Of a stretch of DNA of 64,000 bases, positions 1,074-18,506 are shown piece by piece. The position numbers were made by a program, and so were the translations under genes. Every line of letters starts with the position of its first letter. Within the stretch, counting starts at the first letter, position 1. Origin of the DNA: Anaerolineales bacterium (GTDB lineage Bacteria > Chloroflexota > Anaerolineae > Anaerolineales > UBA11579); contig JAJTXV010000005.1 of the NCBI GenBank assembly GCA_021463845.1, positions 131,718-195,717 of the forward strand, in the 5' to 3' direction. The notes below the pieces were generated by a model that was given only the letters and a program-made list of their open reading frames with translations, was not told the DNA's origin and ran no database searches.

Positions 1074-2423
1074 CTATGTTGGAATTCCCTGGCGGTTGCG
1101 CGTGTGGGCAACAAAGTCGCTCACCTGCGCGTCGCTGGGCAAGCCGCCGTTCAGCACCAGGAAACCGGGGGCAAAGAAGTGGCCGGAAGGATTGTCGCGT
1201 TTGAGGCGCGGAAACTCTTCGAAGATGCGCTCAGACAAATGTGTGTCCAGCGTATGCACTACGCGTTCCGGCGCAGTCTCGGCGGGCAGGCTCACCATCC
1301 ACTGCAGGAAGCCATGCTGAATGCTGAGATGCTCCAGCCGCCAGGCGAAGGCAACGCACAACTGCGGCAGCCAGGCCGCCAGCTTCTCGGCCAGGTCGCC
1401 CTCCAGACGGTGCTCCGGCAGGCGCGGCACCAGCACATAGGCATAGCTCAACAAAGTGCTGCCGCCAGCCGCCGCCTGGGCGGCAGGCAGCCAGCGCACG
1501 CGCGGCGGCTGGGCTTGCACAGGCTCGGGCTGGGCTTGGCTGGGCACTGCCGGCGCGGCGGGGGCAGCCGCAGCCTGTTGGCCGCGGCTGGCCTGGGCGT
1601 GCACCACTGCGGGTTCTGCCAGGCTGGCCTCGCTGGCGGCCGCCATGGCCGCCGCCATTTTGTCCACCTGGCTGCGCATCTTGCTGAAAGGCACCTGGGT
1701 ATCAAAGACCAAGGCCAGCTTGTAGTCGCTGCCGATGGGCGTGGCGTACAGCATATAGTCGGCCTGGGTAGCTTCCAGGCGCACAAAGCGGGCCAGGTCA
1801 GCCCCGGCTTCACCGCCATTGGAGACGGCCGCCGCCAGCTCTTCGGCGGCGGCGCGCGGCAGCTCGCCGGCGTAGGCCCACACCTCGGCCCCGCGCGTGA
1901 TCAAGGCTGCCTGCGAAGCGGACTCGAGCGAAAGCTGGGCCAGGTGTTGGGCGGATAGCTTGGTGTCTGCCAGCCAAGCCGGGGCAGCGTGAGCCGGGGT
2001 TTCGGTGAGTCTTACTTCCACAAGGGCATTGCCGTACTGCGCCTTGGAAGGGGTGTCCGCTACGTGGAGCGGGCCATATAGTTGCTCAATAGCCGCCGCC
2101 AGGTCAGGCAAATAGAAGGGCTGGGCAAGCACTGCTTGCGCGCCCGCATGCTCCCAACCATCCGCGGGAGTGTCTTCGGCCAAAATAAGGATGAGTTTGA
2201 AGGCGGGGGCAAGCTGACGCATCTGCTCCAGATAGCTGGCGATGTCCATATCAGCAAAATCCGTATCCAGCACCAGCAGCTCCAACCCGCCAGCCGCGGT
2301 TTCCAGCGCCTGGGCAGGCGAAGACAGCAGCTGGGGTTGCAACCCATGCACATCGGCAAGCAGTTGGCGAACCATTTCGCCAAAAGCCTTGCTAGGGGTA
2401 AGAATGATGGCTTGATCGGCCAT
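1074..2423 (-). CDS. Receiver-like protein fused to an inactive IS200/IS605 (Y1) transposase-like domain
   Basis: 449 residues from ATG at 2423; an in-frame TTG at 2450 would add nine residues but is less likely. Residues 1-115 resemble a response-regulator receiver (LLVLDTDFADMDI at the phospho-acceptor strand). A long Ala/Pro/Gln-rich middle follows. Residues about 327-449 align by eye with the Y1 transposase fold: LEGDLAEKLAAWL, then WMVSLPAETAPERVV, ERIFEEFPRLK, FFAPGFLV. Where transposases have the metal-binding HUH motif this protein has F372 and Q374, and the catalytic Tyr position appears to be F437. Catalysis is therefore not expected. Role is unknown; a regulatory or nucleic-acid-binding use is inference. 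Confidence 0.72.
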   Translation of the reverse strand: MADQAIILTPSKAFGEMVRQLLADVHGLQPQLLSSPAQALETAAGGLELLVLDTDFADMDIASYLEQMRQLAPAFKLILILAEDTPADGWEHAGAQAVLAQPFYLPDLAAAIEQLYGPLHVADTPSKAQYGNALVEVRLTETPAHAAPAWLADTKLSAQHLAQLSLESASQAALITRGAEVWAYAGELPRAAAEELAAAVSNGGEAGADLARFVRLEATQADYMLYATPIGSDYKLALVFDTQVPFSKMRSQVDKMAAAMAAASEASLAEPAVVHAQASRGQQAAAAPAAPAVPSQAQPEPVQAQPPRVRWLPAAQAAAGGSTLLSYAYVLVPRLPEHRLEGDLAEKLAAWLPQLCVAFAWRLEHLSIQHGFLQWMVSLPAETAPERVVHTLDTHLSERIFEEFPRLKRDNPSGHFFAPGFLVLNGGLPSDAQVSDFVAHTRNRQGIPT

Positions 2424-2505
2424 AGGCGTCAAAAAAGCCCCAAAGGGCAAGTAAGTATAAGCTAAAGCCCCTGGGTTTTAACCAGCCAGTTTTACGGGTC
2501 AGCTT

Positions 2506-15261: not shown

Positions 15262-16023
15262 CTAGTTTTCTATAGCAGCCCGCAGCCGGGCCGCCATGCG
15301 CCCAAAGGCGGGCGAATAGCGCACCGCCAGCTTGCGCGGGCGCGCCAGCTTGACCTGCATATCCAGCTTGATGCTGGCCGGGCGGCGGCCGAGCACCAGC
15401 ACGCGATCGGCCAGGTACAGGGCCTCATGGATGTCGTGCGTGACCATCACCACGGTCTTGTGCTCCAGCTCCCAGATGCGCAGCAACTCTTCGCCCATTT
15501 TCTCGCGGGTCAGCGCATCCAGCGAGCCGAAGGGCTCGTCCAGCAACAGCAACTGCGGGTCCTGCACCAGCGCCCGGCCGATCGCCACGCGCTGCGCCAT
15601 CCCGCCGGAGAGCTCGCTGGGTAGCGCCTGCTCAAAGCCGCGCAGGCCGACCAGATTGAGCATGTCCCAGGCGCGGTCGATCGCATCCGGGTCATTGCGC
15701 AGCTCCAGCGGCAGAGCCACATTGTCCAGCGCAGTCCGCCAGGGCATCAGGTTCGCATCCTGAAACACCAGCCCCACTCCGGCCTGCGGGCCTTGCACCG
15801 CCTGGCCCGCGAACAATATCCGCCCGCGGCTGGCGGGCAGCAAGCCCGCCAGCAGGCGCAGCAGCGTGCTCTTGCCCGCGCCGGACGGGCCGAGCACGCA
15901 CACAAACTGACCGCGCGGCACGCTGAAACTTACGTTGCGCAGCACGGCCAGCTGGCCGTTGCGGTCAGCGAAGCTGGCGGACACCTTCTCCACCGAGAGC
16001 AAAGGAGCGTTACTAACCATCAC
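15262..16023 (-). CDS. ABC transporter ATP-binding subunit (NitT/TauT type), riboflavin importer
   Basis: 253 residues. Walker A GPSGAGKST, Q-loop VFQDANLMPW, signature LSGGMAQRVAIGRAL, Walker B LLLLDEPFGSLD and switch VTHDIHEAL are all intact, and the last is typical of NitT/TauT/SsuB-type importers. The start overlaps the stop of the substrate-binding protein gene. The FMN riboswitch at the head of the operon argues that the substrate is riboflavin or a related flavin rather than nitrate, taurine or a thiamine precursor. Confidence 0.85.
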   Translation of the reverse strand: MMVSNAPLLSVEKVSASFADRNGQLAVLRNVSFSVPRGQFVCVLGPSGAGKSTLLRLLAGLLPASRGRILFAGQAVQGPQAGVGLVFQDANLMPWRTALDNVALPLELRNDPDAIDRAWDMLNLVGLRGFEQALPSELSGGMAQRVAIGRALVQDPQLLLLDEPFGSLDALTREKMGEELLRIWELEHKTVVMVTHDIHEALYLADRVLVLGRRPASIKLDMQVKLARPRKLAVRYSPAFGRMAARLRAAIEN

Positions 16024-17000
16024 TCTGCCGGCAAGTAGTCGTTGCTGAACGCCGCGCCCAGGTCCAGGGGTTGGGTGATCAGGCCCATCTCCAGCAGCAC
16101 GGTGTGCATGTTCTGCCAGGCCTCAGGGCTGGAATAGCCCAGTGGGTCCGCATGCCACGACTCTATGGAAAGAGTGAGCACAGCCATCTGGGTGTCTCTA
16201 TCCAGCGCATCCAGGCCATCCACATATTTCTTGGAGATCTCGAACGCGGCCTCAGGGTCAGCAATGGTGTCGGCCAGCCCACGCAAGAGGGCACGCACGA
16301 AGGCGCGCACTTGTTCCGGATGCTCGGCCAGCATGCGCTCGTTGGTCAGCACGCCGTTGGCGGCCAGTTCCACGTAGTCGGCCACATGCAGCACAATCAC
16401 ATCGTAGCCCTCGGCCTCAAGCTGGATCGGCTCGTTGTTGACATAGCCCACCACGGCCTGCTGCTGCCCGGCGGCCAGCGCCTGCACCTGGTTGAAGCCG
16501 ATAGAGTCCAGCACCACTTCGGACTCGGGGATGCCGGCGCTGCTCAGCAAGGCGCGCAGGCCAATGTAATTGGCGCCGAACAAGCCGGGCAGCCCAATAC
16601 GCTGGCCGCGCAGGTCTTCGGGTGTGGTGATGCCGCTCTCCGCCAGGGAGACCACCGCCACCGGGAACTCGTGGTACCAGGCCGCCACGTACACGATCGG
16701 CAGGCCAGCGGCGCGGCCCAGCAGCACCTGCTCGCCAGACACGATCGCAAACGGCAAATCGCCCGCCCCCACCAAAGCCACGCCATCCGTCTCGAAGCTG
16801 TAGTCGAACTCGATCGCAAAGCCCGCCTCGATGAAGTAGCCGCGCTCCACCGCTACGTAGAACGGCGCATACTGCACGTTGGGGATGTAGCCCATTGGCA
16901 GGCGCAAGGGCTGTACGCCCGCCGGCGCCTGCCGCTCACTGTCGCAGGCCGCCAGCAGCAGCCCGCAGATAACCAGAATTAACAAGATACGAGTCTTCAT
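16020..17000 (-). CDS. ribY: Substrate-binding lipoprotein, NMT1/THI5-like (RibY-type)
   Basis: 326 residues from ATG at 17000 (GGAGAG just upstream). Lipoprotein signal ends LLLAAC. The mature protein follows the NMT1/THI5-like binding-protein pattern: LRLPMGYIPNVQYAPFYVAVERGYF, then DLRGQRIGLPGLFGANYIGL and ERMLAEHPEQVRAFVRALLRGL. In Chloroflexi a THI5-like binding protein (RibY) with permease RibX imports riboflavin under an FMN riboswitch. The operon here has exactly that composition. Ligand identity is inferred from the riboswitch, not from binding-site residues. Confidence 0.8.
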   Translation of the reverse strand: MKTRILLILVICGLLLAACDSERQAPAGVQPLRLPMGYIPNVQYAPFYVAVERGYFIEAGFAIEFDYSFETDGVALVGAGDLPFAIVSGEQVLLGRAAGLPIVYVAAWYHEFPVAVVSLAESGITTPEDLRGQRIGLPGLFGANYIGLRALLSSAGIPESEVVLDSIGFNQVQALAAGQQQAVVGYVNNEPIQLEAEGYDVIVLHVADYVELAANGVLTNERMLAEHPEQVRAFVRALLRGLADTIADPEAAFEISKKYVDGLDALDRDTQMAVLTLSIESWHADPLGYSSPEAWQNMHTVLLEMGLITQPLDLGAAFSNDYLPAE

Positions 17001-17803
17001 TGCTCTCCATAAGAAAAAGAAGAAGGATTGGATTTTTGTTGCCACCACAGCCAGCGCCGCTCGGCCAGCACCACCAGGCCATACAGGCTCAGCGCCAGCG
17101 CCACCAGGGCGAACACGGCCACAAAGACCAGGGCAGTATCGTACTGGCCGCGGCCCACATTGATGAGGAAGCCCAGCCCGCGGTCTGCGCCCACCAGCTC
17201 GCCTACCACTGCGCCAATGACCGACAGCGTAGCGCCGATGCGCAAGCCGCCCATGAACACAGGCAGCGCGGCGGGCAGCTCCAGCAGGCGGAAGGTCTGG
17301 GCGCGGCTGGCCTGCAAGCTGCGCATCAGGTCACGCAGCTCCTGCGGCACGCTGTGCAGACCCACGATGGTGTTGATAAGAATGGGAAAGAATACGATGA
17401 GGGCACAGATCAGCGTCTTTGACAGCAGGCCCGGCCCAAACCAGATCACCAGCAAGGGCGCGATGGCTACGATGGGCACAGACTGGCTGGCCACCACGAA
17501 CGGAGCCAGCAGCCGCTCCCAACGCGGCGAGCGTGCCAACCAATAGCCCAGCAGCGCAGCCGCCAGCACGCCGATGGCCAGGCCCAGCAGCACTTCCTGC
17601 AGGGTGACCAGCCCATGCCGCAACAGTGTGCCATCCTGCACGGCGATCAGCAGGCGGCCCCACACCGCGCCCGGAGCGGGCAGAATGAAGGCGGGCAGCT
17701 GAGTCACCCGCACCACCAGCTCCCAAGCCAACAGCGCTAGTGCGGCCACAGCGGGGCCTAGCAGCCAGGTCAAGCGCTCTGAATGATCCTGCGTATTCTT
17801 CAC
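16997..17803 (-). CDS. ribX: ABC transporter permease (RibX-type riboflavin importer)
   Basis: 268 residues from GTG at 17803, chosen because GAGGTG lies six bases upstream and because the reading frame further upstream runs through the terminator and riboswitch. Six membrane segments are visible, with the permease EAA-loop region ELRDLMRSLQASRAQTFRLLELPAALP and the typical VIGAVVGELVGADRGLGFLI. It is the first gene of the importer operon and overlaps the binding-protein gene by four bases. NitT/TauT-type fold; flavin specificity follows from the leader. Confidence 0.82.
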   Translation of the reverse strand: MKNTQDHSERLTWLLGPAVAALALLAWELVVRVTQLPAFILPAPGAVWGRLLIAVQDGTLLRHGLVTLQEVLLGLAIGVLAAALLGYWLARSPRWERLLAPFVVASQSVPIVAIAPLLVIWFGPGLLSKTLICALIVFFPILINTIVGLHSVPQELRDLMRSLQASRAQTFRLLELPAALPVFMGGLRIGATLSVIGAVVGELVGADRGLGFLINVGRGQYDTALVFVAVFALVALALSLYGLVVLAERRWLWWQQKSNPSSFSYGEQ

Positions 17804-17824
17804 TACAATCACCTCGTCCAAACA

Positions 17825-17855
17825 AAACAGCCCCGATGGATCATCGGGGCTGTTT
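17825..17855 (-). terminator. Attenuation terminator of the FMN riboswitch
   Basis: A 14-bp perfect stem (AAACAGCCCCGATG, 17825-17838, with 17842-17855) and a three-base loop are followed on the reverse strand by TGTTT. It sits between the riboswitch aptamer and the ribX start, as expected for an OFF-switch that terminates transcription when FMN is bound. Confidence 0.85.
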
Positions 17856-17899
17856 GCATGCGCGCATAGCACAAGCCACGCATCCCGCGCCGCAAAACA

Positions 17900-17978
17900 A
17901 TGCCCCAAAGCAAACTGCTTTGGGGCATGCGAGCACGCGTTATGCGTAAACAAGCAAAAGCACAAGTGCTTTTGCTTG
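17900..17978 (-). repeat. Two perfect hairpins between aptamer and terminator
   Basis: Two 13-bp perfect stems stand side by side: 17900-17912 with 17916-17928 (ATGCCCCAAAGCA) and 17951-17963 with 17966-17978 (CAAGCAAAAGCAC). Neither is part of the FMN aptamer consensus. They lengthen the expression platform and may include an antiterminator partner or be inserted palindromes. Confidence 0.65.
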
Positions 17979-18000
17979 CTTGCGGAGTCTTCGATTCTCC

Positions 18001-18188
18001 GCTCTTCTTTCATCCGGACTATACCGTCGGCCCCGGAGTTTCACCGGATCCTGCGCTCAAACGAGCGCTCGTGGGCTCTACCACCGATCGGGAATCTACG
18101 TATCGGCTTCGCCGATACTAATGGCGTTGCTCCGCAACGCCACTAAATGGAGCGCAGCTCCACTGTATCACCCTGCCCCGAAGAGTAT
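18001..18188 (-). promoter_or_regulatory. FMN riboswitch (RFN element) with an enlarged P2 loop
   Basis: Read on the reverse strand. It starts CTCTTCGGGGCAGGGTGA (5' P1 and P2), continues ATTCCCGATCGGTGGTAGAG and GGATCCGGTGAAACTCCGG, then GCCGACGGTATAGTCCGGAT, and ends GAAAGAAGAG, which closes P1. These are the conserved RFN blocks in order. Between GGGTG (18169-18173) and TTCCC (18090-18094), where the P2 loop is normally a few bases, there are 74 bases holding three perfect hairpins (18100-18118, 18122-18142, 18148-18162). It controls the ABC importer genes downstream. Confidence 0.92.
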
Positions 18189-18202
18189 TTAGTTGTCAAA
18201 AC

Positions 18203-18417
18203 CCAGTAGCAGCAGTTGCGTAGCAACTGCCAACGTTGTGGCGCTAGCCACAACGCACCTGCCACCGAAGAGTATTCAATTGCATGAAAACCATGGCGTT
18301 TCATGCTTTTCGAAACGCCCAGCGCAGCAAAGCTGCGCAAAAGCCAGTAGCAGCAGTTGCGTAGCAACTGCCAACGTTGTGGCGCTAGCCACAACGTACC
18401 TGCCACCGAAGAGTATT
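18203..18417. repeat. Two 74-bp repeats upstream of the riboswitch, each carrying a copy of the riboswitch 5' arm
   Basis: 18203-18276 and 18344-18417 are almost identical (one visible mismatch). Each contains hairpins CAGTTGCGTAGCAACTG and CGTTGTGGCGCTAGCCACAACG and ends in ACCTGCCACCGAAGAGTATT. That 20-mer nearly equals the riboswitch 5' segment at 18170-18189 (ACCCTGCCCCGAAGAGTATT). Between and after the repeats are further hairpins built on GCGTTTC/GAAACGC and GCGCAGC/GCTGCGC. No gene is seen in 18189-18506. Confidence 0.8.
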
Positions 18418-18506
18418 TAGTTGTAAGGGCAACCGGCGTTTCGTGCTTTCCGAAACGCCCGCGCAGCGAAGCTGCGCAACTCACTGATTATAACCACCTG
18501 CATGCA

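Follow-up and report, generated by a model that had tools for sequence, protein, structure and literature searches.

A three-hairpin insert in the T-loop of an Anaerolineales FMN riboswitch and its likeness to a family-specific double-hairpin repeat

How can an FMN riboswitch accommodate a long, hairpin-filled insert in L2, the loop that docks on L6, and what is the source of such an insert? We describe here a locus that raises both questions, within a 64,000-nucleotide stretch of DNA from an Anaerolineales bacterium (the window), the features of which are collected in Table 1. A default Rfam search at the gathering threshold missed the riboswitch. At a permissive threshold RF00050 gives a significant full-model match (model positions 1-138, E = 6.4e-14), though at 63.2 bits it falls below the curated cut-off of 66.2 because the P1/P2 5' strand of the aptamer is wrongly aligned inside the insert. 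The insert thus explains why default Rfam annotation misses the riboswitch in the window genome, where this is the single FMN match in 2.33 Mb, and in the relatives G001 and G010, whose FMN matches likewise lie below the cut-off. The conserved blocks P2 to P6 are present in order, bearing out a sequence-only reading of this DNA that had reported all of the RFN blocks, and the L2 T-loop consensus (U1 G2 N3 R4 A5 UU) is retained as UGA, the insert, and GAUU. The complete aptamer fold is not obtained when the whole leader is folded as a single sequence. The riboswitch is predicted to bind FMN.

The same reading had noticed a P2 loop filled with hairpins, an observation that is confirmed with two corrections: the insert is 71 nt long (18097-18167) and not 74, and its three hairpins are perfect apart from a single G-U pair in hairpin a and another in hairpin b. 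From 5' to 3' the insert consists of UAC, hairpin a, hairpin b, hairpin c, and GUA, and on folding UAC and GUA form a closing helix that makes a four-way junction with zero unpaired junction bases. The minimum free energy of the insert is -44.4 kcal/mol, compared to -32.4 for the best of 200 dinucleotide shuffles (z = -7.1). Clusters of at least three perfect palindromes are found six times in a 464-kb sample (the window and twenty 20-kb stretches of the same genome), and two of these six, including the largest, are in the riboswitch leader.

Table 1. Features of the riboswitch locus and related genes in the window (all on the minus strand)
Feature	Position	Strand	Basis or remark
457-aa protein, C-terminal Y1-transposase-like domain	1074-2450	-	PF01797
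ABC transporter ATPase	15262..16023	-	PF00005
NMT1/THI5-like substrate-binding protein (RibY-like)	16020..17048	-	PF09084; best solved relative 3ix1
ABC transporter permease (RibX-like)	16997..17812	-	PF00528
Terminator-like hairpin 2, 5' arm GCCCCGA complementary to aptamer 5' strand UCGGGGC	17820..17855	-	absent from terminator scan output
Terminator-like hairpin 1, U-rich tail	17894..17928	-	terminator scan
FMN riboswitch aptamer (RFN element)	17997..18188	-	RF00050, 63.2 bits, E 6.4e-14
Insert in L2 T-loop between nt 3 (A) and nt 4 (G), 71 nt	18097..18167	-	T-loop register, fold
Insert hairpin c, 8 bp, loop GAA	18100..18118	-	fold; second hairpin of double-hairpin element
Insert hairpin b, 12 bp, loop GGA	18119..18145	-	fold; related to dispersed GGAGTTYGC hairpin
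Insert hairpin a, 8 bp, loop UGC	18146..18164	-	fold
Module A2: second aptamer 5'-strand copy (18275-18258) and two hairpins	18212..18275	-
Module B2, two adjacent hairpins	18295..18338	-	leader sequence
Module A1: aptamer 5'-strand copy AUACUCUUCGGUGGCAGG (18416-18399), then hairpins 18396-18375 and 18371-18353	18353..18416	-
Module B1, two adjacent hairpins (18477-18461, 18459-18435)	18435..18477	-	leader sequence
TATAAT, likely -10 box	18487..18492	-	inferred; 310 nt before aptamer 5' strand

The aptamer lies on the minus strand between a ferritin gene (PF00210) and an ABC transporter operon. FMN-controlled RibXY has been described in Chloroflexi, a few species also having ribZ, which encodes an ATPase (PMC4418817), and the gene set here (NMT1 binding protein, permease, and ATPase) resembles those published systems. 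The closest solved structure to the binding protein is that of a pyrimidine-precursor binder, and the riboflavin assignment therefore rests on the riboswitch.

The leader also suggests how the operon could be controlled. The terminator scan reports two sites against a shuffle mean of 1.3, which alone is not significant. Between the aptamer 5' strand and the 3' leader, the longest complement in 21 family leaders averages 7.9, compared to 5.74 for shuffled leaders (highest shuffle mean 6.24), with non-complement controls on the real leaders giving 6.2 and 6.8, at or above that highest shuffle; the complement is usually GCCCCGA in a terminator arm. These patterns are consistent with transcription attenuation in which the aptamer 5' strand serves as antiterminator. 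With FMN bound, the 5' strand UUCGGGGC would be held in the aptamer and the terminators before ribX would form, and without FMN the strand would be free to pair with the terminator arm.

Upstream of the aptamer the B and A modules form a unit repeated in tandem with a 141-nt period and 90% identity, so that part of the riboswitch 5' half is duplicated across 18197-18480 on the minus strand. Among 41 genomes such 5'-strand copies precede the riboswitch only in the window genome (G000), G001, G005, and G007, and they are absent from G008, a close relative of G007; we read them as a recent tandem duplication. The copy module folds into a three-way junction; across five copies 98.5% of cells pair and two pairs are compensated, a weak covariation whose score was reached by 17 of 500 shuffles. 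We set aside the idea that the copies are an independent element, as they occur only before the FMN riboswitch in these four genomes and other matches lie elsewhere, and also that they act as extra antiterminators, as the match is interrupted by an extra U (CGGUGGC) and each copied strand finds its partner inside the module to which it belongs. In relatives, the aptamer 5' strand is preceded by a TATAAT at a distance of 26-31 nt in 11 of 20 family loci, and a sigma-70 scan gave no complete promoter. Four species (L032, L033, L037, and L038) have tandem repeats with a seven-base unit (AGTGAGC, AAGCTAT, CAGCTAT) close to the -10 box and upstream of the aptamer.

A large insertion in this loop was initially thought to be unexpected. 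The site itself, however, is already in print: Barrick and Breaker 2007 (PMC2258182) describe helix insertion at a specific T-loop position in L2 of FMN riboswitches, and in a structure survey (PMC3764141) L2-L6 docking is attributed to a base that intercalates between T-loop bases four and five. Insertions recur, moreover, in related genomes. We parsed 124 of 125 FMN matches, from 122 of 151 genomes with the window genome included (the weak match L071 and the twice-fetched locus L126 lie outside the 124), and 94 of these riboswitches of the order carry an L2 insert. A helix of at least 3 bp starts exactly between T-loop nucleotides 3 and 4 in 82 of the 94, compared to a mean of 16.8 and a maximum of 25 for controls that join the 5' flank of one genome to the 3' flank of another. 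Counts at out-of-phase registers are 0-9, and those of 77 and 59 at in-phase registers reflect the same helix counted further in. T-loop A5 is kept in all 124 and U1-G2 in 122. Because the window's riboswitch obeys this register, with U-G-A and G-A-UU kept on either side, the insert need not disturb docking, and T-loop docking is probably retained.

What is unusual is therefore not the insertion site but the size of the insert, its three-hairpin form, and its origin. Thirty of the 124 riboswitches have no insert, 84 have one of 8-36 nt, and ten exceed 36 nt, these being the window's riboswitch and those of eight other members of its genus and one representative of another genus in the same family. 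We also scanned contigs of 84,980 species for spacings of 42-102 nt, a search that undercounts since near-consensus flanks were required. It returned 50 stretches, 38 of them with an FMN 3' core (counted by hand), of which one, L181, is a run of N. The remaining real long-spacing loci, including those of Bacillota, Thermogemmatispora, and Ktedonobacter, mostly form one long helix, and a Lentisphaeria locus (L166) has two hairpins in its insert. A three-hairpin fold on the T-loop is found only in L151 and L161, both of the window's genus; L155 has three hairpins, but these are off the T-loop.

The likely origin of the insert is indicated by a repeat dispersed in genomes of the family. We defined the core of this double-hairpin element as GGAGTTN?GC-NNN-GCN?AACTCC, which is matched exactly 63 times across 18 of the 24 genomes in the window's family and occurs in two of 177 genomes elsewhere in the order; a reversed control pattern matches in one genome. 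Hairpin b of the FMN riboswitch in relatives accounts for six of the 63 places. Of the other 57, some of which are orthologous or tandem and hence not all independent, 42 have a second, different perfect hairpin (arm of at least 6) within the flanking 30 nt, compared to 30 of 171 windows at a distance of 60-170 nt and 78 of 1140 flanks after shuffling. The layout is that of a constant hairpin, a spacer usually of 0-4 nt, and then a variable hairpin without fixed sequence.

The riboswitch insert in the window comes close to this layout. Hairpin b, GGCGTTGC-GGA-GCAACGCC, is one compensated pair change from the core and so is missed by the exact pattern, which matches at one place only in the window genome, and hairpin c follows b, with ATTA between the GGCGTTGC core and c, within the usual spacing of 0-4 nt. 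An intergenic copy in the same genome (C1:164676), TGGCGTTTTGC..GCAAAACGCCA-TTA-GCAGCGGC..GCCGCTGC-GTA, shares with the insert its GGCGTT arms, its ATTA spacer, and its GTA end, and its first hairpin also appears in the palindrome survey of the 464-kb sample. The riboswitches of G007 and G008 contain GGAGTTTGC..GCAAACTCC-ATTA-GCAGCGGC..GCCGCTGC-GTA, which across 48 nt is 98% identical to an intergenic element in G005, the riboswitch of which has a different partner hairpin. At two element loci the orthologous sites in sisters lack the element. At one, L224 (about 1470-1530; G008:C1:828135), two element hairpins replace sequence in a region that aligns with a gene conserved in sisters, with a net change of +6 nt (read by hand). 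At the other, two hairpins are found 5' of a SAM-I riboswitch in G007 and G008, with none there in G005, G000, or G002.

Several further observations concern the surroundings of the element. Besides those of G007 and G008, an element is found in G006 at a similar place 5' of the SAM-I riboswitch, next to a different neighbour hairpin; among these loci, the SAM match and the element are at 1383-1484 and 1503 in L251, and at 1370-1470 and 1500 in L217. A tRNA gene lies within about 150 nt of the element at seven of the 40 loci scanned with Rfam, from 52 (L128, L218, L273, L278, L283, L287, and L290), and at L128 (G000:C1:762027-762147) the palindrome cluster downstream of the tRNA gene is similar in style to the riboswitch hairpins. 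Three parts of L280 (query 357-412, 547-597, and 707-763) are additional dispersed repeats of roughly 50 nt, present at several places in G005 and its relatives, beside the element. We do not favor an uptake-sequence interpretation, as the half-site GGAGTTTGC is not enriched (7 versus 5.5 expected in 464 kb), and the palindrome GTTGCGGC..GCCGCAAC is not above control as a second dispersed family.

The insert varies between species in the number, order, and sequence of its hairpins, and that of G004, a member of the genus, is a plain hairpin of 36 nt. In an alignment of hairpins b and c from five species, 97.1% of cells are paired and three pairs are changed on both sides, compared to 0-1 when slid. 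These compensatory changes indicate conserved pairing, not necessarily selection, because arm-to-arm correction could give the same outcome. The most stable predicted structure for the inserts of G002, G005, G007, G008, and G010 is a single long hairpin with no multibranch, and two alternative insert states are possible on such predictions. The third hairpin in the insert of L036 (G006) ends in a T-loop-like GGUGAAAUUCC that may serve as a second docking loop.

We consider it probable that this is a working FMN riboswitch in which the T-loop was interrupted at the permissive site between nucleotides 3 and 4, initially by a helix and later by the dispersed double-hairpin element, and that the insert is tolerated. 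A plain helix at this site, which is widespread in the order, would represent the first step; the family-specific element (b, ATTA, and c) would have entered the same site later, with hairpin a joined to the b-c unit. The four-way junction would point away from the aptamer, and the T-loop halves UGA and GAUU could still meet and dock on L6, such that FMN would still be bound. Tolerance of the insert, and not a use for it, is the most likely situation, in agreement with the tolerance of inserted palindromes suggested by the sequence-only reading, as b-c matches a dispersed element and insertion between nucleotides 3 and 4 leaves the docking bases in place. Several points weigh against this explanation: transfer could have run from riboswitch to genome as well as from genome to riboswitch, hairpin b of the window departs from the exact core, the inserts of five genus members fold as one long hairpin, and at L224 the element replaces coding sequence and is no simple addition. 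A rather unlikely alternative is that template switching during replication expanded the P2.1 helix where it stood, with the likeness across the genome reflecting the same mutational process. This would account for hairpin arms that vary freely yet stay complementary, for a second hairpin without fixed sequence, and for the lack of a transposase linked to the element; however, 98% identity over 48 nt between a riboswitch insert and an unlinked intergenic element, together with confinement of the GGAGTT core to one family, is not expected from independent template switches.

It is improbable that the insert has gained a function, for example as a site for a protein or RNase, as an element that sets folding speed or pausing, or as another sensor. 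All ten genus members that have an FMN match carry an insert, the closing helix is kept, and there are compensatory changes in b and c, but the ambiguity of those changes, the variation in hairpins between species, and the plain hairpin of G004 argue otherwise, and we find no evidence for the added regulatory function that had been proposed. A dead riboswitch, with L2 broken by the insert and the upstream 5' copies as debris, is very unlikely; a score under the Rfam cut-off and the partial duplications would fit, whereas the core blocks, T-loop bases, synteny, and terminator-like hairpins are all kept in genus members with 71-92% RibX identity. The window genome is in 20 contigs, and palindromes and repeats are error-prone, although an assembly artefact is scarcely credible when an insert is present in nine other genus genomes, including the single-contig G005 and G007.

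The dispersal of the double-hairpin element suggests that it is mobile, although we found no mobilising enzyme for it. PF01797 has one match in the window genome, as in most genus members, within a 457-aa protein in which the HUH pair (QHGF) and the catalytic tyrosine seem by eye to be missing; its N-terminus appears receiver-like, also by eye. A RAYT mobiliser was thus rejected, with this single degenerate and fused Y1 domain as the only candidate. It is doubtful that the element has a preference for entering folded RNAs or sites next to them (the FMN T-loop, the 5' side of SAM-I, and near tRNA genes), but if it did, this would imply an RNA-level or structure-guided insertion route and a riboswitch periphery made from selfish hairpins.

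The riboswitch class is ordinary and the insertion site known; it is the insert that is exceptional, with a family-specific double-hairpin repeat as its probable source. A dispersed hairpin repeat at a docking-neutral loop site offers a route by which the variable insertions of riboswitches can arise, and the natural size variants, from 0 to 111 nt, provide a means of gauging the carrying capacity of the T-loop. The window's riboswitch shares its conserved blocks and its T-loop insertion position with the published helix-interrupted L2 riboswitches, and differs from the typical 8-36-nt inserts of the order in having a three-hairpin four-way junction. Literature searches, in the texts available, returned no description of a double-hairpin repeat of this family. 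REP/RAYT systems also include short dispersed palindromes, which are alike in this respect, although the sole Y1-like protein of the window genome is divergent and fused. Double-hairpin elements in Allomyces mitochondria, reportedly described by Paquin et al. in 2000, are said to be dispersed and tolerated in transcripts outside structurally important gene parts. The likeness to these, by description and not by sequence, lies in two adjacent dispersed hairpins, whereas the present element is bacterial-chromosomal with a GGAGTT core of one Anaerolineales family; the Allomyces elements are cited in PMC2800124. Small palindromic repeats are likewise found within genes in Rickettsia, including the RNA genes for tmRNA and M1 RNA (Delihas 2007, PMC2229807), but these are 105-146 bp with one long stem, whereas the Anaerolineales element is about 40-50 nt, forms two separate hairpins, and resides in a riboswitch.
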